DNA from: Methanolobus sp.
GTDB lineage: Archaea; Halobacteriota; Methanosarcinia; Methanosarcinales; Methanosarcinaceae
Reading direction: 5' to 3'
Assembly: GCF_016278385.1 (NCBI RefSeq)
Contig: NZ_JADQBY010000009.1
Coordinates: 1 to 42,705 of the forward strand
Length of the DNA stretch: 42,705 nucleotides
Shown here: positions 28,331 to 40,994 of the stretch, in pieces
Numbering within the stretch: the first letter of the stretch is position 1
Layout of the letters: each line of letters begins with the position of its first letter
The notes under the pieces: generated by a model
Told to the model about the DNA's origin: nothing
Seen by the model: the letters and a program-made list of their open reading frames with translations, nothing else
Databases searched by the model: none
Position numbers and translations under genes: made by a program

Positions 28331-28690
28331 GGCTTGCGTACACGTATCACAGACATATAACTTTTTTGTTTATGGCCAGATTTCTCTCAAAATGCAATAT
28401 TCACAGTATTTAGAATCTAATACCTGCTGAAACTAGAAAGAAAGGAATTAATTACAGGTGTACACTGAGAAAATTGAAGGATAGAGTCAGAGAAGATGAC
28501 TTCAATCGGAATAGGAAGGAGATGGGGAAAATATTTAATTTTGCAGTATCAATGGAAGAACATTATTACTTATTTCAATTCTAATATAAAGTAACACATA
28601 AAAATAGTCGAACTTATGTATTATTGTCTAATATGTTTACTGTGTTATAATTTGATTGAACCATAATTTCTCTTTTAGTGATATCAAATT
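28331..28690. other. Intergenic region before the Cas1 scrap
   Basis: Apart from the hss promoter I see nothing recognisable; AT-rich sequence without a frame of useful length. Confidence 0.4.
28353..28363 (-). promoter_or_regulatory. TATA element of hss
   Basis: The minus strand reads AGTTATATGTC about 25-30 nt before the hss start codon, so the transcript should begin at or within a few nt of ATG 28330. No Shine-Dalgarno sequence is present. Confidence 0.45.
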
Positions 28691-28768
28691 ATGAATACTG
28701 AATATGATAAACCATTTACACTTAATAATCACGTAAGAGAAAGGTTGGAAATGTGGGAATTATTCTAA
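28691..28768 (+). pseudogene. Cas1 C-terminal fragment (copy 1)
   Basis: 25 codons ending YDKPFTLNNHVRERLEMWELF. The KPF-LN-HVRERLE tail matches the C-terminus of the Cas1 fragment at 31685-31969, and DNA identity is high over about 54 bp. It is only the last 20 or so residues of Cas1; nothing upstream continues it. It shows that the tail reads through RLEMW, whereas copy 2 has a stop at the Trp codon. Confidence 0.6.
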
Positions 28769-28794
28769 GATATCTAAAAATATTTAAATTAAGA

Positions 28795-29876
28795 TCAGGA
28801 ACTCATAGGTATTGTGAATGTGAATGTACTTCCTTCTCCTACTTCACTTTGAACCCATATTTTTCCACCATGCATCTCAACATAATGTCTGGCAATTGAA
28901 AGCCCTAATCCAGTTCCACCGCATTCACGACTAACAGATGAATTGACTTGATTAAAAGATTCAAATATCGAGTGCTGCTGATTCACAGGGATGCCAATAC
29001 CATTATCAGACACAGAAAATTGGATGTTGTAATTGGCGATTTTTGAATCAAACCACACTTTGCCATTTGCAGGTGTGAATTTAATTGCATTGCTAAGAAG
29101 ATTGCACATTATTTGTTTGAGCTTTATTTTGTCGGCATATAGTTCCTGAGTTTCAAAATCTGATCTGCATTTAATATCTATAGATTTCGCTTTAATCATA
29201 GGTTCCATTAAAACTATAGTTTCATCAATTAGTTCGTTAACACTAATGGTTTCAGGTTCAAGTCCATCTTGCCGGATTCAATTTTAGAGAAATCGAGTAT
29301 ATCGTTGATTACCTCTAGTAAATGATTCCCACTTTTTTGTACATTTGAGATATATTCGATTTGTTTTTCATTTAGATCGCCATATTCTTTGTCAATTAAA
29401 ATTTGGGAAAAACCAATTACGGAGTTAAGAGGTGTCCGCAATTCATGACTCATATTTGCAATAAATTCAGATTTGACACGATTTGATTCTTCAGCAATAT
29501 TTTTGGCTTCAATAAGTGCCTTTTCAGCTTTTTTACGCTCAGTTATATTTCTGACAACAATTAGAGCAGCTGGAACTCCTTTGTAATTAATAGGGCGAAC
29601 ATTAAGTTCAATTGGTACTAATAAATCATCTTTACATTTGCACAGAGTTTCGATTATTCCATTTCCCATCTTTAATTTTTCAGCTACTTGTTCCCGTAAT
29701 TCTTCTCTTAATTCTAAAGGAATTATATCTGCTACATTCATTTGAAGCAATTCCTTTTTTGTATAACCTAGATCATCACAAGTAATTTGATTCATTTCTA
29801 AAAAACGACCATCTAAACTGTTTATAACAATTCCATCGTTTACAGAATTGAATATTATTTCAAAAATATCTTTCAT
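28795..29876 (-). pseudogene. PAS-sensor histidine kinase broken by a frameshift
   Basis: Two adjacent frames together make one kinase of about 360 aa. 29229-29876 encodes a PAS domain (IIFNSVNDGIVINSLDGRFLE) with PAC (VVRNITERKKAE) and the HisKA domain with the phospho-acceptor box MSHELRTPLNSVIGFSQIL. 28795-29208 encodes the ATPase domain with N box [11 protein letters not shown]1 DNGIGIP and G2 [10 protein letters not shown]. The coding continues in another frame through [15 protein letters not shown], so a one-base indel lies at about 29245-29280. All catalytic motifs are intact, so the lesion is recent or a sequencing error. No membrane helix: cytoplasmic sensor. No response regulator adjacent. 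Confidence 0.8.
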
Positions 29877-30467
29877 TTTTTTGCCCCATAAATGTTGATT
29901 ACTAAAATTACCAGGAACCTATTATCTTCTTTGAAGTTACATATATTATCCATCGTGTACAGGCTTTATTGTATATGTTAAATACAATATATAAATAATG
30001 CTAGCAAATGTACACAATTTTAAAAACAACATTTGCAAATGGTTTAAATGTTCTTTATTAATCTCAGTTTTTGATACTTCAAGAGCTACAAAATGGTTCA
30101 CAAAAGAAAATTAGTGTGGGATGTTCTTTTCAGAAAAAGTTGCCTGACTGAATGGTTTATTTTAATTTCCGGGGCACTCTTATTATATATCTCATAAAAT
30201 AAATATCTCAGTGCGTTCAAACACGATTTTAATACAAAATAAGCACCAATTGCCATAAATAAAGTAAATATGATAGTTTTATATACATTGTATACATATT
30301 ATGTTTTAGATTGATTAAAAACTCACGTAGGGTATGTTAATCAATATATTACGTCCGATAACAGCTTTATATAGTTAATAGCCATTTGAAAGATGGTAAA
30401 AACGTATATGGCTTATCGAAAGTCCTTAAAAATCATATTAAGGCATCTTCATGGGAGGTGAAATATA
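29877..30467. other. 590-bp region upstream of the lysine-rich gene
   Basis: A possible 34-codon frame at 30093-30197 (basic N-terminus RKLVWDVLFRKS then one hydrophobic helix WFILISGALLLYIS) lacks a good ribosome-binding site. The probable TATA element for the next gene, CTTTATATAGTTAA, lies at about 30363-30376. ATTTGCAAAT is a short palindrome near 30033. No other gene. Confidence 0.35.
30363..30376 (+). promoter_or_regulatory. TATA element of the 25-aa lysine-rich gene
   Basis: CTTTATATAGTTAA about 95 nt upstream of ATG 30468 implies a structured leader of about 70 nt ending in GGAGGTGA. Confidence 0.4.
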
Positions 30468-30545
30468 ATGGCACCAAAAGAGCAAAAGAAACCTGATCAG
30501 AAGGTAGCACCAAAAGCACCTGGTAAGGATCAGAAGAAGAAGTAA
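30468..30545 (+). CDS. 25-aa lysine-rich small protein
   Basis: Encodes a peptide of 25 residues made almost only of K, P, Q, A, D and G, with ten lysines (MAPKEQKKPDQKVAPKAPGK then DQKKK). The expression signals are unusually complete for so short a frame: a TATA element at about 30363, an excellent Shine-Dalgarno GGGAGGTGA (30454-30462) 5 nt from the ATG, and a hairpin/T-run terminator 27 nt after the stop. This strongly suggests a translated gene. Net charge and disorder suggest binding to nucleic acid or ribosome; that is inference. No family recognised. Confidence 0.65.
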   Translation: MAPKEQKKPDQKVAPKAPGKDQKKK

Positions 30546-30571
30546 TTTTATGTACTAGGTCTTATTTGTTA

Positions 30572-30596
30572 AGGAGTTCAAACCTCCTCTTTTTTT
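30572..30596 (+). terminator. Terminator of the lysine-rich gene
   Basis: AGGAG (30572-30576) pairs with CTCCT (30584-30588), followed by TTTTTTT (30590-30596). Confidence 0.55.
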
Positions 30597-30661
30597 GTGA
30601 TGCTAACCCGTTTTATTAGTGTCATCGTTTTGATCAGATTATTTTCAGGATACACAAATAC

Positions 30662-30916
30662 AAACTCGTTGTTGATCATGAGTATGCACAGGAGATCAGA
30701 TACTATTTCCGCCCACTTAATCCATATAGCTTTGATATTGATCTGTTGAAGGCTGAAAAAGAAGATATGTGGAATTATGTTATCTCTTCAAAACGTTATG
30801 CTCTTTACACTTATGTGAATGGATATATCTACTTTATGGGAGGAGAGCGGTCTTTTAAACGTCATGGACCTGAGCATTTAAAGAATCCATTTACAAAGGC
30901 TGTTGGTGATTGGTAG
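30662..30916 (+). pseudogene. Internal fragment of a family B DNA polymerase-like gene
   Basis: 84 codons (KLVVDHEYAQEIRYYFRPLN PYSF... ISSKRYALYTYVNGYIYF ... HGPEHLKNPFTKAVGDW) align with the region just downstream of the YMDTDS motif in the two larger polymerase-like genes of this window (PEHAQEIIGYFQPLNPYNLD ... GISSKRYAIYKF ... LHGLGHLTNPFSKDGGDW). It begins after the DTDS motif, so it has no active site, and ends at a TAG right after GDW. The closer relative is the copy at the right edge. A decayed element scrap. Confidence 0.7.
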
Positions 30917-31045
30917 GTAGAGATGGAAACCTAACTCTTGATGCTGTTAGATAATGAGTGTTTACGAATTAATACTCTCACAAAAAACATAAGGCAAGAA
31001 TAAGCCATTTTCATGTGTGATTTCTCATCTGTAAATTAAAACAAA
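30917..31045. other. Short AT-rich gap after the polymerase fragment
   Basis: 129 bp with no recognisable gene. Convergent with the YkgJ-like gene that follows on the minus strand. Confidence 0.3.
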
Positions 31046-31606
31046 TTAAACATGGATTTCCGGGTTTCCCTGAAATCTCCTGATTGAACCAAGATATTCT
31101 TTAAAAGGTAATAGCTGATCGATTTTAAGAACTAACATAGGAATAGACACTCCTTCTTTCAGTTTGATGGCAAAGGAACAATGCGATTGTTCAAAGGAAT
31201 CGATCGTTTTTGCTGGAACAGGTTGTTTCAACATATTGTTTGAATATTCGACATAGTCTTTGAATATGCTTGCCCCCAAATCACATGGAAACAGTAGCAA
31301 CACATCTGGCATGTCGCAGATGTTGAACGGAAACGTTCGGCAGATGTTCGGTCTCCTTTCATATACGCTGCACCTATTAAATTCCAGAAAGGAACATGGA
31401 GGACATATTTTGTAATGATGTTCTCTATCTTTATGGCAGGATACGATCTTATCGGCGTCATATTTTGATGCCTGCCTTAATATTTCCAGTTCATTTTCAT
31501 CCAGATTGATATCTGCAATTTTGCAGCAGATTGCAGGACAGGTAGATGGACATGTATAGTGTGAATGTATTTCCTGAACAGTTTCAAAAAAAGGCAAACT
31601 ACTCAA
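31046..31606 (-). CDS. YkgJ-like cysteine-cluster protein
   Basis: 186 aa; start TTG 31606 with AAGGAAAG directly upstream. N-terminal CPSTCPAICC (about 19-28) with C-PPCSFLEFNRCSVYERRPNICRTFPF (about 73-98) is the signature of the YkgJ/UPF0153 zinc- or iron-chelating family, in which about eight cysteines bind a metal cluster. Function in the family is unknown. No membrane segment. It sits alone among element remnants and points away from the Cas1 fragment at 31685. Confidence 0.75.
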   Translation of the reverse strand: MSSLPFFETVQEIHSHYTCPSTCPAICCKIADINLDENELEILRQASKYDADKIVSCHKDREHHYKICPPCSFLEFNRCSVYERRPNICRTFPFNICDMPDVLLLFPCDLGASIFKDYVEYSNNMLKQPVPAKTIDSFEQSHCSFAIKLKEGVSIPMLVLKIDQLLPFKEYLGSIRRFQGNPEIHV

Positions 31607-31684
31607 CTTTCCTTTTCAGTGCTTGATAATTAATAATCAATGGTTGTCTATACAAATATTTTTAAACTATCTTTTCAAACAACG

Positions 31685-31969
31685 GAAATGAACCCAAGTA
31701 AGAATAGCTTAGCCTATGATTTGCAAGAGCCTTTCAGATTCCTTGTTGATTTGGTTGTAATCAGCTTGATTGAGTCGGATAAAGTGGAGAATAAGGACTT
31801 CAGAATGGCAGATTCAGACGAAATCAGACCGAAGATATTGAGTATTTCTTATTCAGAATGGAAAAAGATGAAATTTTCGAATGTTATTCTCTACTACATG
31901 AAGAAGAACGCTATGAGCGATAAACCGTTTAGTTTGAATGAACATGTAAGGGAAAGGTTGGAGATGTGA
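31685..31969 (+). pseudogene. Cas1 remnant with core and C-terminal tail (copy 2)
   Basis: In one frame: the conserved Cas1 core MNPSKNSLAYDLQEPFRFLV and DLVVISLIES, joined through KDFRMADSDEIRPKILSISY to EWKKMKFSNVILYYMKKNA and the tail SDKPFSLNEHVRERLEM. Full Cas1 has roughly 60-80 more residues between these parts, so an internal deletion has occurred; the N-terminal half, including the Glu and His metal ligands, is missing. The terminal TGA replaces the Trp codon (TGG) seen in copy 1. The frame is open upstream to 31640 but that part is not Cas1. Cas1 is the integrase of CRISPR adaptation and of casposons; this copy cannot be active. Confidence 0.75.
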
Positions 31970-32240
31970 GAAGGGTGTAAAAAAGGATAATATGTTTTTG
32001 GTAAAAATAATAGAATGTAGCTGAAGAAACATAATTTAAGGTTCATTTTCAAGTTATTCAGCTATTAAAAACAATAAATAGTTTCTTTTTCTTACTTCGA
32101 TCAACAGAAATACGCTTTGATTGAAGTAAAACCTCAGCTTGTTTTTGAATGCCAAGAAATTTTGTTCTTCTTCCTGTTTTTAAGACGGAGAAAAAAAGCA
32201 TGCATTTTTATATATAGAATCATAGGAACAATAGATTTTC
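31970..32240. promoter_or_regulatory. Gap holding the DUF998 gene promoter
   Basis: No gene. TTTATATATA at 32207-32216 is a strong TATA element ending 25 nt before ATG 32241, so the DUF998 mRNA is probably nearly leaderless. Confidence 0.45.
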
Positions 32241-32864
32241 ATGAGCGAAATACAAAATCATAGTTTCAAGTACAGAAACATTGCAGGGGCACTGCTGTTT
32301 ATTGCAGGTGTTGTGATATTTCTGGGAATTACAAGCGCTGAAACATTTTATCCTGATTACAATACCGCACAGAATATGATAAGTGACCTTGGTGCTACCG
32401 AACCGCCTAACAGCATTATAACCCAGCCTTCTGCAACCATCTTTAATTCCACGATGATAGTTTGTGGTCTTTGTATAATCCTAGCTGCCTTTTGTATACA
32501 CCGATCATTCAGTGAAATCACAGTTACAGTACCTTTATTATTGTTCGGGTTTGGCGCACTTGGGGTCGGGATTTTCCCTGGAAATTATGGCGTAGTACAT
32601 GGATTATCTGCACTGCTGACATTTATTTTTGGCGGCGTGGCAGCAATTGTAAGTTTCAAGATTGTAGCATCACCATTCAGATACCTCTCAGTGATTCTCG
32701 GGTCCATAGCACTGCTGGATCTGCTGCTCTATTATATTCTCGGCCAGACAAGTCCTTTTGCTGTATTTGGGATAGGAGGACTTGAAAGATGGATAGCATA
32801 CCCTGTCGCATTATGGGTGACTGGATTTGGAGGCTATCTTATGGGAAATTCTGAGGAAGAATGA
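32241..32864 (+). CDS. DUF998 family membrane protein
   Basis: 207 aa with six predicted helices: AGALLFIAGVVIFLGITSA, STMIVCGLCIILAAFCI, VTVPLLLFGFGALGVGIFPG, VVHGLSALLTFIFGGVAAIVS, LSVILGSIALLDLLLYYILG and WIAYPVALWVTGFGGYLMG. The pattern YNTAQNMISDLGAT in the first loop and GIFPGN...HGLSALLTFIFGG are hallmarks of DUF998 proteins, whose function is unknown. Cas1 sequence begins 1 nt after its stop codon. The gene looks intact and is probably leaderless. Confidence 0.85.
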   Translation: MSEIQNHSFKYRNIAGALLFIAGVVIFLGITSAETFYPDYNTAQNMISDLGATEPPNSIITQPSATIFNSTMIVCGLCIILAAFCIHRSFSEITVTVPLLLFGFGALGVGIFPGNYGVVHGLSALLTFIFGGVAAIVSFKIVASPFRYLSVILGSIALLDLLLYYILGQTSPFAVFGIGGLERWIAYPVALWVTGFGGYLMGNSEEE

Positions 32865-32865
32865 T

Positions 32866-33095
32866 GATTTCTACTCTGATTGGAAGAAGATGGGATTCTC
32901 AAAAGGCACTCTGCATTACATGAAGAAGAATGCTGAAGCAGATAAGCCATTAATACGATTGGTCTTGATGCTCATGTAGGCTTTTTGCATGAGATTAATC
33001 CTAGTAAGAACAGCCTTGCTTACTATTTACAAGAACCTTTCAGGTTTATTGTGGATATTGTTGCCATCAATTTGATTGAGAAAAATCAATATACT
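32866..33095 (+). pseudogene. Scrambled Cas1 remnant (copy 3)
   Basis: Two Cas1 segments are present in reverse order. 32866-32950 encodes the C-terminal part DFYSDWKKMGFSKGTLHYMK KNAEADKP. From 32955 a different frame encodes the core TIGLDAHVGFLHEINPSKNS and LAYYLQEPFRFIVDIVAINLIEKN. In Cas1 the core precedes the C-terminal part. The HE of GFLHE is the conserved metal-binding His region. The junction near 32951 fits a deletion between two tandem copies or a rearrangement. Not functional. Confidence 0.75.
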
Positions 33096-33148
33096 ATAAT
33101 TTCATTCTATTATTCATCACAAAAGTTCTGTTGATCTGGGGGATTTAA

Positions 33149-35888: not shown

Positions 35889-36251
35889 ATGGATTCTGAA
35901 ACCACAATTCTTGGGCTTAAAAATCAGGTAAAACAATTCTGTGATGATAGAGAATGGGATGAGTTTCATAATGCAAAAGAGTTTTTTATAGGTATTATCA
36001 CAGAAGCTTCTGAGCTTTTAGAACAATTTCGGTTTAAGTCTGAATCTGAAATTGAAGAGATGCTCAAGGATTCTAACAAAAGAGAATCAATTGGCAATAA
36101 GCTAGCAGACGTTTTTATTTCTTTATTGAGATTTGCTCAGAGATACGATTTTGACTTATCAGATGAACTATCAACAAAAATTACAATCAATGAGATAAAT
36201 TATCCCATAAGTAAAGCTAAAGGTTCAAGCAAAAAATATACGGAGTTATAA
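35889..36251 (+). CDS. MazG-like nucleotide pyrophosphohydrolase
   Basis: 120 aa, the size of single-domain all-alpha NTP pyrophosphohydrolases (MazG/RS21-C6 type), which cleave NTP or dNTP to NMP plus pyrophosphate. The metal site is visible: IITEASELLEQFRF (ExxE around residue 41-44) and GNKLADVFISLLRFA (ExxD-type motif with the Asp in LADVF). ATG 35889 has AGG immediately before it, so the initiation site is weak. It ends 2 nt before the headless polymerase-like gene. In mobile elements such enzymes shape the nucleotide pool for the element's polymerase; that is inference here. Confidence 0.8.
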   Translation: MDSETTILGLKNQVKQFCDDREWDEFHNAKEFFIGIITEASELLEQFRFKSESEIEEMLKDSNKRESIGNKLADVFISLLRFAQRYDFDLSDELSTKITINEINYPISKAKGSSKKYTEL

Positions 36252-36253
36252 TT

Positions 36254-37921
36254 GTGAGACTATTCGAAGGGACTATTCAAGATTTTAAAGACCCTGTTGA
36301 TATTTATAAGGCTCTTGATAAGGATTCATGGAAACTAATGAATATCCTAGTAGAAATTGAGCCCGATAACGATATTTTCCCTATACGGACTAAGTATACC
36401 GAAAAAGATAGCGAAAAAGATAGCTATAATATAGGTATAAATTATGTAACCTATAAGGGTAGTTTATACTACTTTTTACCTGATATCCTAGCCTCAAAAT
36501 TACTTACAGGTAAGACTCCTAAGATAAAGAGTGCAATAAGGTTCATTCCTGAAGGCATACAGGAAGACCTAACAGAGACAGAGATTTATGGCGTTCATGT
36601 AAATCCCAAAGAAGATAACCTTATCAAAGTCCTTGTTGAGAGAAGACAGGAAATCAAACAAGAGATGAAGAAAGTCTCAAAAGATTCTCATGAATATGAT
36701 GTTCTGGATGCTCAACAGAAAGCCTTAAAGATTCTCAATAACTCTACTACCTACGGAATTTACATTGAGATGCATCCAAAGGACAAAGAGGAATTGAATG
36801 TTTACAGCACAGAGGAATTTGAGACAGAAGGAACATTTGAGAGTACAGGTACTTTTTTCAATCCAATAATCGGAGCAAACATAACAGCAGGAGCAAGGCT
36901 ATTACTTGCTATTGCTGAGAAGTTCGTGATGGATAAAGGAGAAGTACATGCTTACATGGATACGGATTCAATTTTTGTTCCTCCACATCTTGCAGATGAA
37001 CTAAGCCATCTCTTTGATCCTCTGAATCCATATGACTTTGATAAGCCTATCCTGGAAATAGAGGATGGCATGGAAGATATTTGGTTCTATGGTATCAGTT
37101 CTAAAAGATATTGCTTGTTTAGAAAAGAGGGAGACAAAATTGTAATTCCAGAAGGGAAGAAGCTCTTCTATAAACTGCATGGACTAGGGCACATCACCAA
37201 TCCATTTAGCATGGAGTTGAAGGAAGGAGATCAATGGCATAAGAGATTATGGGAAGATATTCTCAAAGTTCATTTCCATCCTGAAGAGTTACCTGATATA
37301 TTGGAGAAATATGAAAACTATGCAGTTATCTCTAAACTTGCTGTTTCAACGGGAACTATACTGAAACGATTCAAGAAAGTGAATGAAGGAAAGGAGTTAG
37401 ATGAGCAAATAAAACCTTTCAATTTCATGCTTGTTGGTAATGGTGCTAAAGTTGGCAAGGATGGAGAGATAGTCAAACCTATTGCTCCTTTCAACAAGAA
37501 TCCACAGGTAGCTGTTGAGAATCCCTTCCTAGATTATAATACAGGGAATATGCTTCAAGGAAGAGACTACTGGAAGCCATTAAGTGAAGTGTTCCTTGAG
37601 TACATTGATCATCCAGAGGCTAAGTTTGAAGGGGATGTTGGAATTCTACAAAGGAGACATCTGAAGCCTAAAGGATGTGTTTACATTGGTAAAGAAGCCA
37701 ACAAAGTTGAAATGCAGGAGCTTGAGAGAAATAAAGTTGAAACATACCTTGACATCAAGAAGTTTCATGAATGGGTGCTTTCTCTAGAACCTAAAGATTC
37801 ACGGGCAATGGGAATCAAGGATAGGAGTACACTGAAGAGGATTAAGGATAAAATAATGCAAGGAGAGAAGCTAAACTACAAGCACGGAACGGTGAAGGTG
37901 TTAGTTGATAATTTTACTTAA
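36254..37921 (+). CDS. Headless family B DNA polymerase-like protein
   Basis: 555 aa, GTG start, CGGAG 8 nt upstream. Palm/finger region of a family B polymerase: motif B variant KILNNSTTYG (159-168) and motif C YMDTDS (234-239) with both catalytic Asp residues. Then GISSKRYCLF, LHGLGHITNPFS and a C-terminal HTH-like KDRSTLKRIKDKI. The exonuclease domain and motif A (DxxSLYP) that should precede residue 1 are absent, so polymerase activity is unlikely. About half the residues match the copy at 41072-42705. The MazG-like gene occupies the place of the missing N-terminus. Either a truncated relic still read, or a repurposed protein. Confidence 0.75.
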   Translation: MRLFEGTIQDFKDPVDIYKALDKDSWKLMNILVEIEPDNDIFPIRTKYTEKDSEKDSYNIGINYVTYKGSLYYFLPDILASKLLTGKTPKIKSAIRFIPEGIQEDLTETEIYGVHVNPKEDNLIKVLVERRQEIKQEMKKVSKDSHEYDVLDAQQKALKILNNSTTYGIYIEMHPKDKEELNVYSTEEFETEGTFESTGTFFNPIIGANITAGARLLLAIAEKFVMDKGEVHAYMDTDSIFVPPHLADELSHLFDPLNPYDFDKPILEIEDGMEDIWFYGISSKRYCLFRKEGDKIVIPEGKKLFYKLHGLGHITNPFSMELKEGDQWHKRLWEDILKVHFHPEELPDILEKYENYAVISKLAVSTGTILKRFKKVNEGKELDEQIKPFNFMLVGNGAKVGKDGEIVKPIAPFNKNPQVAVENPFLDYNTGNMLQGRDYWKPLSEVFLEYIDHPEAKFEGDVGILQRRHLKPKGCVYIGKEANKVEMQELERNKVETYLDIKKFHEWVLSLEPKDSRAMGIKDRSTLKRIKDKIMQGEKLNYKHGTVKVLVDNFT

Positions 37922-37982
37922 ACGCTTATGTTTAAGAAAGGGTGCTAATGTGGGATGGATGCTGATAAAAAAATAGAAGAAT

Positions 37983-38001
37983 AAATGCCGTTATGGCATT
38001 T
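37983..38001 (-). terminator. Terminator of the serpin gene
   Basis: AAATGCC (37983-37989) pairs with GGCATTT (37995-38001). Read on the minus strand it follows the serpin stop and is followed by the complement of the A-run at 37968-37974. Confidence 0.5.
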
Positions 38002-39346
38002 ACTCATATTCTGGTGATTCCACTTTACCCATGAAGAGTATGCAGCCTGTTCTTTTGTCTTCTATAAAGAACATGAAAGGATGGTCTGCTTTAAATTCTC
38101 TAATTGGAACGGGTTTTGGTTCAACATATTCATCGGGTACACACATCTCCACATATGTAGCTGCTGCTGCTTCTGTTCCTTCTTCTTGTACATCTATAAA
38201 GGCTTGATGAATTACTTGAGTTATGTAGAGTGCTTTTTCATTGGGGTCTAAAATTTTGTCTGCATCATATATTCCAGAAAAGTTTGCAGATGAAAAATCA
38301 AACGCATCCACAGCCCCCATATTTTTAAGTGATTCTGATAAATCTGTTTTGGTTTCGAACTTGAATTTTGGAATCCATGTTTTGACCTCATATTTAGAAT
38401 CCATATTGGATTTAAGTTTTTCATAATCTTTTACAGAAAAACCATTCTCAAATTTATCAATATCATTTTCATCGGGAAGGACTACATACATAGACAAGTC
38501 GTTACCTTTGTATGATAATTCGACAATTTTTGCGTTCGAACCTTCACCATAGTTAAAATACTGTTTTGTGTACATCACATCTACAAGAATTTCATCGTCC
38601 TCAGAAGGATAGAAATTTCGATCTTTTGTATCTTGTTTATCAAATTCTGTTTTCCATTTTCCATTAAAATAAATTGCATTTGTGATGATTAAACGAGTCT
38701 TATCGTTGATCGCACTACTTGGAACTAAATCTTTAATCTTATCTTTAGTCCTTTCTTCTACCCAATCATTAATTGTATTTCTTGAGTTTTCAGGCTGACC
38801 AACAAAATCTAGTTTCTCTACTTTCCCAAAATAGTAATTATCAACATTGGAAATGTACTGTTCTTTCACGGGATATTTTTTCTGTATCCATAATGCATTT
38901 GCAGTTTCCAGTTCATAATCATCAGTCTCTGAGTTTATTTCATCAATCATCTTTCCTAGACTTACTTCTAAAACTGGTTTGTCAAGAGGAAAATAAAATA
39001 CATTTGCAATTTGCTCTTTAGTAGTACCTTCTGCACCATCATAGCAAATTGCTATTGCTGTGAATATACTGTGTGGAGAAAAAAAGATGTTATCATCATT
39101 GTTTTTTACCATTGAATACATGTCAAAGGCAAAAGCATTGTTTGCCGCTGCAATATCATAATCTTCAACAGATTTCGCGTTTAGTGTAGATTGTGTATTG
39201 GTCATGCCATTTTTGAATACATCCGTATTAATTATTGTGGAAATTGATTTTTGGGAAGTATCCGAATTTGAGTTTTCAACACAACCTACACAAAGCAATG
39301 ATAATGAACAGAAAAACATCAATATAATTATTTTTTTGCGATGCAT
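38000..39346 (-). CDS. Serpin, predicted lipoprotein
   Basis: 448 aa. Signal peptide with a lipobox (SLSLLCVGC; lipidated Cys about residue 22), a Ser/Asn/Thr-rich linker, then a complete serpin fold of about 370 residues: NIFFSPHSIFTAIAICYDGAEG, TRLIITNAIYFNGKWKTEFD, YVVLPDE, FIDVQEEGTEAAAATYVEM (from about residue 382) and HPFMFFIEDKRTGCILFMGKV. The hinge GTEAAAAT has the small residues required for loop insertion, so it should be an inhibitory protease inhibitor rather than a non-inhibitory serpin. P1 cannot be assigned with confidence. Anchored outside the membrane, it may protect surface proteins. Serpins are patchy in archaea and often laterally acquired. Confidence 0.92.
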   Translation of the reverse strand: MHRKKIIILMFFCSLSLLCVGCVENSNSDTSQKSISTIINTDVFKNGMTNTQSTLNAKSVEDYDIAAANNAFAFDMYSMVKNNDDNIFFSPHSIFTAIAICYDGAEGTTKEQIANVFYFPLDKPVLEVSLGKMIDEINSETDDYELETANALWIQKKYPVKEQYISNVDNYYFGKVEKLDFVGQPENSRNTINDWVEERTKDKIKDLVPSSAINDKTRLIITNAIYFNGKWKTEFDKQDTKDRNFYPSEDDEILVDVMYTKQYFNYGEGSNAKIVELSYKGNDLSMYVVLPDENDIDKFENGFSVKDYEKLKSNMDSKYEVKTWIPKFKFETKTDLSESLKNMGAVDAFDFSSANFSGIYDADKILDPNEKALYITQVIHQAFIDVQEEGTEAAAATYVEMCVPDEYVEPKPVPIREFKADHPFMFFIEDKRTGCILFMGKVESPEYE

Positions 39347-39424: not shown

Positions 39425-39530
39425 TTTTTTGGTTATGCACCTAGTCTACAAAAGCGTTGCCAAAATTTGAGTTGTATATATCCCAAAAACAAAGTGCGGG
39501 GTAATAGTAATAACCAAAAAACGCAACGCT
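39425..39530. repeat. Two interleaved inverted repeats (pseudoknot-like)
   Basis: TTTTTTGGTTAT (39425-39436) is complementary to ATAACCAAAAAA (39510-39521), and AGCGTTGC (39453-39460) to GCAACGCT (39523-39530). The order is A-B-A'-B', so the two stems cross. This lies in the gene-free gap 39347-39578 between the serpin and SEC-C genes. Confidence 0.5.
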
Positions 39531-39578: not shown

Positions 39579-40994
39579 TTAAAAGATCACTTTTGCTCTT
39601 TCATCTCCAGGAACAAGAGTTATATCAATACTCTTTTTTTGAGAACACTCTCTTTTAAGTATTGATGTATTCTCTCTAATGAATGCTTTTTTAAAAACAA
39701 CTCGCCCTTTACCCAAGTCAATTTTATTTCCAAAGATTTCATAAGATATTGTTATTTCTGTCTCAAGGTTTTCAATATACCCTTTTTCTTCATACTTTTC
39801 TATCTCTCGACTCAAAAATTCTGAATCCACCCTTAGCGTTATGCTATCAACATAAAGTTGTTTAGTTTCAAGAAAAACAACAATATTATTAACTATTTTA
39901 ATATCTTCATCTGTGATCTTTTCAGGATAATTAAAATTTGTATGATAATAAGTATCTATAAGAGCAAGTTTTCTAGTAAAGTCCACTACCGCTTTATTGA
40001 TTTCTATAGATGGGAAATTGCATGTTTCTAAAAAGATTGTTCCTCTTTTTGAATCCCTAATCGTTAATTTGTCGCTTTCATTCAATGTAGATAAAAACTT
40101 CCAATATTTATTCAAGTCAAGAACATTATTGTTTTCTACTTTTGCATGAAACTTGATTGTAACCTCTTGACCATTTTTGCATATCTTTAGTATCATCTTA
40201 AAAGGTAAATTTGTGGTAACAAACGTGATTATGTTCTCATCTTGAAAGATGATTCCCATTTTTACATTATGATAAGCCATTTCTACATTTTCTGTCATTA
40301 AAGAAAATTCAGCTGGTATATCTACTATGTGGGGCATAAATTTTAATTCATCAAAATTAGACTGAGTACTCCAAAACTGTCTAATTTCATCATCCAAAAA
40401 AGTAAAAGACTCGATTTCATCTTTAGTAAAAGTTATAGATTCACCGTCTTTTATTTTACTATAAATTAATTCTTCTAAACTAGAAATACCTTCCAACCTT
40501 TGTGAAGATGATTTAAGTTTAGCGTTTATTACAATGTTATCTTTTTTAGGTGCAATCACTAGTTCTGTTCTACTTTGATCAGTGTTAATTCTAACATCAT
40601 ATTTTTTGTTATCTATTATTGTAGAACTCAGAATATTTGCGAGACCATGAATTTTATTTAATGTGGGCTCTTGGGATAAAATCGGCAATGACTGTTCAAT
40701 AGAGGAAACAATGTCAGAGGTAGCAGAAATCTTATCGTCAATTAGACTTAATTTAGCACCTAATTTTTCCTTTTCTTTTTGGTCATTAATATCTTCATAC
40801 GCATTTACAACGCTGTTTAAAATAGGTACATTATCACGAAGAAGATTTTTTCCGAGTGCTGTACCAAATTCAGCTACCTCTTTTATTTTTAAATTTTCTT
40901 TACCTATACAACATTTTTTGTATTTTTTTCCACTACCACAGGGACAAGGATCGTTTTTTCCAACCTTTTTAGGCTTTTCCTCCTCAAATGACAT
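39579..40994 (-). CDS. SEC-C motif protein of unknown function
   Basis: 471 aa. The N-terminus carries a SEC-C zinc motif (KNDPCPCGSGKKYKKCC, about residues 13-29), as found at the end of SecA and in many proteins of unknown role. A charged, partly coiled region follows (YEDINDQKEKEKLGAKLSLI) and then about 350 residues of mixed alpha/beta sequence without a recognised domain. No signal peptide or membrane helix. A TATA element at 41017-41026 (minus strand CTATATATTC) predicts a leaderless mRNA. Lower-GC composition than the core genes suggests acquired DNA. Located just after the polymerase gene on the same strand. Confidence 0.7.
   Translation of the reverse strand: MSFEEEKPKKVGKNDPCPCGSGKKYKKCCIGKENLKIKEVAEFGTALGKNLLRDNVPILNSVVNAYEDINDQKEKEKLGAKLSLIDDKISATSDIVSSIEQSLPILSQEPTLNKIHGLANILSSTIIDNKKYDVRINTDQSRTELVIAPKKDNIVINAKLKSSSQRLEGISSLEELIYSKIKDGESITFTKDEIESFTFLDDEIRQFWSTQSNFDELKFMPHIVDIPAEFSLMTENVEMAYHNVKMGIIFQDENIITFVTTNLPFKMILKICKNGQEVTIKFHAKVENNNVLDLNKYWKFLSTLNESDKLTIRDSKRGTIFLETCNFPSIEINKAVVDFTRKLALIDTYYHTNFNYPEKITDEDIKIVNNIVVFLETKQLYVDSITLRVDSEFLSREIEKYEEKGYIENLETEITISYEIFGNKIDLGKGRVVFKKAFIRENTSILKRECSQKKSIDITLVPGDERAKVIF

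Follow-up and report, generated by a model that had tools for sequence, protein, structure and literature searches.

A headless polymerase frame behind a mazG-like gene

Casposons are archaeal jumping elements driven by Cas1. The window, by which we mean the whole 42,705-nt stretch of Methanolobus sp. DNA that was analysed (contig NZ_JADQBY010000009.1), contains a 555-codon frame, P0001, that corresponds to the back 60% of a family 2 casposon B-family DNA polymerase (PolB), from residue ~355 of ~899 (Table 1). As had been reported in an earlier note on this DNA, the frame is open throughout; it begins with GTG, has a GGAG resembling a ribosome-binding site ~9 nt upstream and contains zero internal stops. 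It comprises the fingers, motif B (KILNNSTTYG), motif C (YMDTDS), the KRY motif (SSKRY), the thumb and a helical C-terminal end, and the Pfam DNA_pol_B model matches it only around motif B. We call the C-terminal end putatively HTH-like from four confident helices in the structure model, in a region matched by full-length homologues.

Table 1 Features of the window that bear on P0001 and the neighbouring casposons
Feature	Coordinates	Strand	Basis or remark
Decayed PolB 3' end, residues 851-898	28408..28539	+	
Decayed Cas1 3' end, residues 373-398	28682..28759	+	
Decayed PolB piece, residues 581-667 of second PolB type	30665..30925	+	
Decayed casposase Cas1, residues 233-282 joined to 345-399	31685..31975	+	
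Decayed, rearranged casposase Cas1, residues 358-384 then 209-271	32872..33107	+	
Complete mazG-like gene (PF12643)	35889..36251	+	Pfam; ends 2 bases before the P0001 frame
Presumed deletion junction, six non-homologous codons VRLFEG	36254..36272	+	DNA comparison with C27 paralogue
P0001, headless casposon PolB, C-terminal 555 codons	36254..37921	+	Frame, Pfam, homology
Serpin, cargo of the casposon of P0001 (element A)	38000..39346	-	Same place as in G060 unit 2, 80% identity
tRNA-side terminal repeat of element A (P0001/serpin)	39448..39478	-	Comparison with G060
17-bp target-site duplication CGCACTTTGTTTTTGGG	39482..39498	-	Identical to tRNA-Leu(TAA) 3' end on contig C1
Distal terminal repeat of element B	39502..39528	+	Same repeat after the tRNA on contig C1
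SEC-C motif protein, probable cargo of element B	39579..40994	-	Pfam and position
PolB of element B, cut by contig end	41072..42705	-	NAMSYG type; not known headless

The missing part can be read from the 899-aa casposon PolB of Methanolobus bombayensis (L014), which P0001 matches at 77%. There, Exo I (37), Exo II (121), Exo III (233) and motif A (322) precede the point at which P0001 begins (~355), and motif B (505), motif C (577) and KRY (627) all follow it. Neither Exo I-III nor motif A (DFFSMYP) was found in P0001 or in the DNA upstream of it, and full-length relatives in the same genus possess every one of these motifs, a comparison that bears out the earlier claim that motif C is kept and the exonuclease and motif A are lost. 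The argument that motif B is unusual falls, since full-length relatives share NNSTTYG: the normal motif B of this subfamily is NNSTTYG or NNATTYG, and NAMSYG, with which it had been compared, is motif B of a second PolB type that is ~45-48% identical. The "other copy" of that comparison, the PolB of element B, is cut off where its contig stops; the identical 55-mer terminates contig C31, so the cut is an assembly break. P0001 resembles the PolB of family 2 casposons (Krupovic et al. 2014, PMC4046053) in sequence, in motifs B and C and in its putatively HTH-like end, and it carries the motif B, motif C and KRY of the subfamily; it differs in lacking residues 1 to ~355, as its parent element (element A, below) differs in lacking Cas1, HNH and HTH genes. 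Because the exonuclease motifs and motif A are absent, we count P0001, on its sequence, as a fragment and not as a working family 2 casposon PolB.

DNA homology of P0001 to its closest paralogue, on contig C27, begins at 36272, leaving some six foreign codons at the start of the frame. Complete homologues differ there, and the possibility raised earlier that they share this N-terminus does not hold. No trace of a polymerase head was found beside the mazG-like gene. B-family polymerases can be split in principle, and a head encoded elsewhere might work in trans with P0001, although nothing specific to P0001 points that way; the assembly, which misses some casposon sequence, contains no free-standing PolB N-terminal half, and its sole head sequence is that of the C27 copy, fused to C27's own C-terminal part. 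We regard a split gene as exceedingly unlikely. PolB copies do break contigs in this assembly, where the contig pairs C28/C31 and C27/C30 each have an exact 55-mer common to their ends, and the mazG-polB join could be an artefact of assembly or library preparation within a multi-copy family, the real gene being complete. However, the junction sequence occurs once in the assembly and is not a repeat, so that a de Bruijn mis-join is improbable, and the best paralogue of P0001 is just ~85% identical; we consider such a chimera very unlikely. With the closest paralogues ~13-15% different, there is no direct way to date the deletion of the head. Among 112 genomes of the family, none yielded an orthologue sharing this junction. 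Just past P0001, at 37948-37968, ATGTGGGATGGATGCTGATAA is similar to the codons that end casposon Cas1 in L014; the two may share a terminal sequence, or the likeness may be chance.

Casposon borders at tRNA-Leu(TAA)

Full-length PolB copies adjoin genes for Cas1 (PF01867), an HTH-HEAT-like protein, a 214-aa protein and an HNH-like protein, a layout by which we assign them to the family 2 casposons (PMC4046053). An automatic inverted-repeat search returned no casposon ends on four loci (L014, L015, L017 and L018), and casposon ends were taken from a tandem array in genome G060, in which three casposons stand behind tRNA-Leu(TAA). Unit 2 of this array is flanked on either side by a 25-bp target-site duplication, and its 33-bp terminal repeats have two mismatches. 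Its serpin gene comes after the PolB tail and before the element ends; lying within the element borders, it is casposon cargo. The literature searched contained no report of a serpin in this capacity. A serpin lies tail to tail with a casposon PolB in three genomes (window 38000-39346; G060, L136 1216-2502; L126 3260-4516). The serpin 3' end was considered as an integration target and dropped, as G060 has the serpin inside the element and the target at tRNA-Leu. A search of IMG/VR for close relatives found none.

In the window, the PolB tail of P0001 is followed by the serpin, the terminal repeat and CGCACTTTGTTTTTGGG. On contig C1, CGCACTTTGTTTTTGGG is the 3' end of tRNA-Leu(TAA) and is followed by the terminal repeat that opens element B at 39502. 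Because CGCACTTTGTTTTTGGG and this repeat are common to the C1 tRNA and the window, we place element B beside the tRNA; element A, with P0001 and the serpin, would stand behind element B, the link running across a contig gap. We define the serpin cargo, the terminal repeat and the target-site duplication as the putative surviving end of element A. Its right border retains one terminal repeat and one 17-bp copy of the duplication, which matches tRNA-Leu(TAA) on C1; the left copies of both, and the left end of the element itself, were not found. A Cas1 of element A was looked for from 33.1 to 36.25 kb, on the strand where it would be expected, and none was detected (older fragments only); the HNH and HTH genes of the element have no match in the window, and no intact casposase is present in the incomplete genome assembly. 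Element A would be like family 2 casposons in its tRNA 3'-end target, terminal repeats and target-site duplication (PMC4046053). The Methanosarcina mazei casposon MetMaz-C1 is active, complete and mobile and uses tRNA-Leu sites, of which the tLEU2 site, CGCAcTtAttTTtT, is closely similar to the window's CGCACTTTGTTTTT; its completeness and mobility set it apart from element A (PMC10359463).

Five older casposon fragments, of PolB and Cas1, lie further out from the tRNA, at 28.4-33.1 kb. Two of the Cas1 pieces, one with an internal deletion (31685-31975) and one with a changed order of parts (32872-33107), suggest recombination at short homologies. Tandem casposons with decaying members are also known from MetBur-C3 and the M. 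psychrophilus R15 remnant, in which the inactivated elements carry amber mutations or are unspecified remnants (PMC4046053); the window differs from these in that one large deletion would have left an open frame. The locus offers a snapshot of how casposon arrays decay by tRNA genes, with a better-preserved element next to the tRNA and older pieces outward. In decayed loci, the 3' pieces of Cas1 and PolB are often found in the same orientation with 1-3.5 kb between them (window 28408-33107; L038; L102, L122, L127-L129, L131, L132 and L134), whereas the two genes are divergent in intact casposons. Short remnants of the C-terminal part of Cas1, covering residues ~330-400, occur in about 20 places across the genome (G000). 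In the C27 casposon (L033, 3-3261), a PolB without residues 1-63 points away from a Cas1 3' end, and everything between has been lost.

Headless PolB copies in relatives

PolB matches were found in 67 of the 112 genomes of the family, and relatives hold some 45 full-length or near full-length copies. Among isolated pieces of at least 100 residues, ~40 keep the C-terminus without the head and ~two consist of the head only (hand count of the matches listed). The search for headless homologues proposed earlier thus succeeded in that such copies exist; their breakpoints, however, vary between relatives, as in decay. These differing breakpoints, together with the lack of an orthologue of the P0001 junction, argue that the headless form is not conserved across lineages, and we read headless PolB as the usual decay state in the casposon family and not as a conserved protein form. 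In genome G082, PolB is split at residue 347 by an IS630-type element, a call made from two transposase-like frames and TA ends and not from a database match. In G045, PolB lacks everything before residue ~402; a contig end is close by, and the adjacent sequence may be part of an IS.

The strong preference of incomplete copies (loci L092-L134 among them) for the 3' end, ~40 to 2, has no clear cause. A programmed break near residue 350 in C28 and C31 was considered and dropped, their ends sharing exactly one 55-mer. Two truncated casposon remnants in genome G022 (L102 1-3290 and L122 2356-5591) are 95-98% identical over their flank and over the beginning of the truncated PolB. Their PolB tails differ by a third, recombination having swapped them, and the pair was dropped as a test of selection after truncation for this reason.

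Selection on the P0001 branch

Selection was estimated with a purpose-written GY94/F3x4 codon likelihood program, with branch-specific omega, on 16 PolB sequences. This comparison with homologues, called for in the earlier note, gave a value far from neutral: omega on the P0001 tip was 0.068 (approximate 95% interval 0.045-0.105) versus 0.12 for the rest, and omega = 1 was rejected on that tip (2dL = 114). The tips of full-length PolBs ranged from 0.07 to 0.18; the truncated C27 copy had a raised omega of 0.22, and L100 had 0.33. Along the P0001 branch (dS 0.52), omega was 0.016 from motif C to KRY, 0.086 in the fingers and 0.13 in the thumb and C-terminus, and P0001 had changes at 0 of the 109 columns that are invariant in 25 intact copies. 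Since the constraint is centred on catalytic residues, as in an active polymerase, we read this signal as history from before the cut.

Two estimates bound the period of neutral evolution. If omega before the cut is assumed to have been 0.045-0.07, the neutral share is at most about 4-6% of the branch, a dS of about 0.02-0.03. Independently of this, stops are created by 5.1% of single substitutions, and their absence therefore indicates that the neutral period after the cut was short, with an upper limit of ~0.035 neutral substitutions per site (5% level). Both the stops and the omega interval limit it to about 0.03 substitutions per site. The chief doubt left is that, on the branch test alone, a cut made very recently and selection that continues to act on P0001 look alike. 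Low dN/dS, an open frame and a ribosome-binding site do not by themselves prove that a truncated gene functions.

A headless protein selected for a non-polymerase role, such as DNA binding by the thumb and C-terminal helix-turn-helix, might compete with resident casposons or regulate them. Such a role would fit the open frame, the RBS-like GGAG, the place directly behind mazG and the low omega, and the P0001 model is at its most confident in the C-terminal helices. However, constraint peaks in the stretch from motif C to KRY, a catalytic part needless for a non-polymerase, and is weakest in the thumb and C-terminus, where such a role would reside; moreover, none of the other family genomes has the same junction, and the assembly shows no casposase that is intact. 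We consider this role unlikely, and we give somewhat less credence to its specific form, in which P0001, translated together with mazG, would have been retained because it binds DNA and hinders replication or integration of resident casposons. The earlier proposal was twofold: a truncation in the recent past, or selection that keeps the frame for some role other than polymerase. Truncation is well supported by the omega values, motif C, the invariant columns, the lack of stops and the deletion beside an intact gene; nothing positive speaks for the other arm, since constraint that predates the cut accounts for the signal.

Modelling of the palm with and without the missing part, also proposed earlier, gave a weaker polymerase match for the headless form, from AlphaFold2 models built on shallow alignments that are of low confidence and usable for fold recognition at most (mean pLDDT 56 for P0001 and 66 for full-length PolB). 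The full-length model matches B-family polymerases (best 5mdn, E 6e-8) and the headless model does so weakly (best E 7e-3), which is consistent with the loss of a stable palm and no proof of it.

We conclude that P0001 is very probably the recently truncated polB of an active family 2 casposon, now a fragment in a decaying array. Element A would once have stood, as a family 2 casposon, in a tandem array at the tRNA-Leu(TAA) 3' end. One deletion would then have taken its left part, with Cas1, HTH, HNH and the first ~355 polB codons, and joined the remainder of polB to the DNA just past the mazG stop codon. An in-frame GTG and the GGAG would precede this remainder by chance, such that a long frame is still readable. 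Without the exonuclease domain and motif A, the product would have no polymerase function, and it would have acquired no new role; its intact appearance would be due to selection as an active polymerase until shortly before sampling. Against this explanation, the plausible ribosome-binding site and the closeness to mazG make translation of P0001 possible. In kind, P0001 is an ordinary casposon polymerase, recently truncated. Inactivated PolBs such as the C-terminal half of Pol epsilon have dead catalytic modules and are retained over long times (PMC7544198). P0001 would be like that half in being a B-family polymerase without polymerase function; it differs in keeping its remaining catalytic residues and in lacking a large part of the fold.
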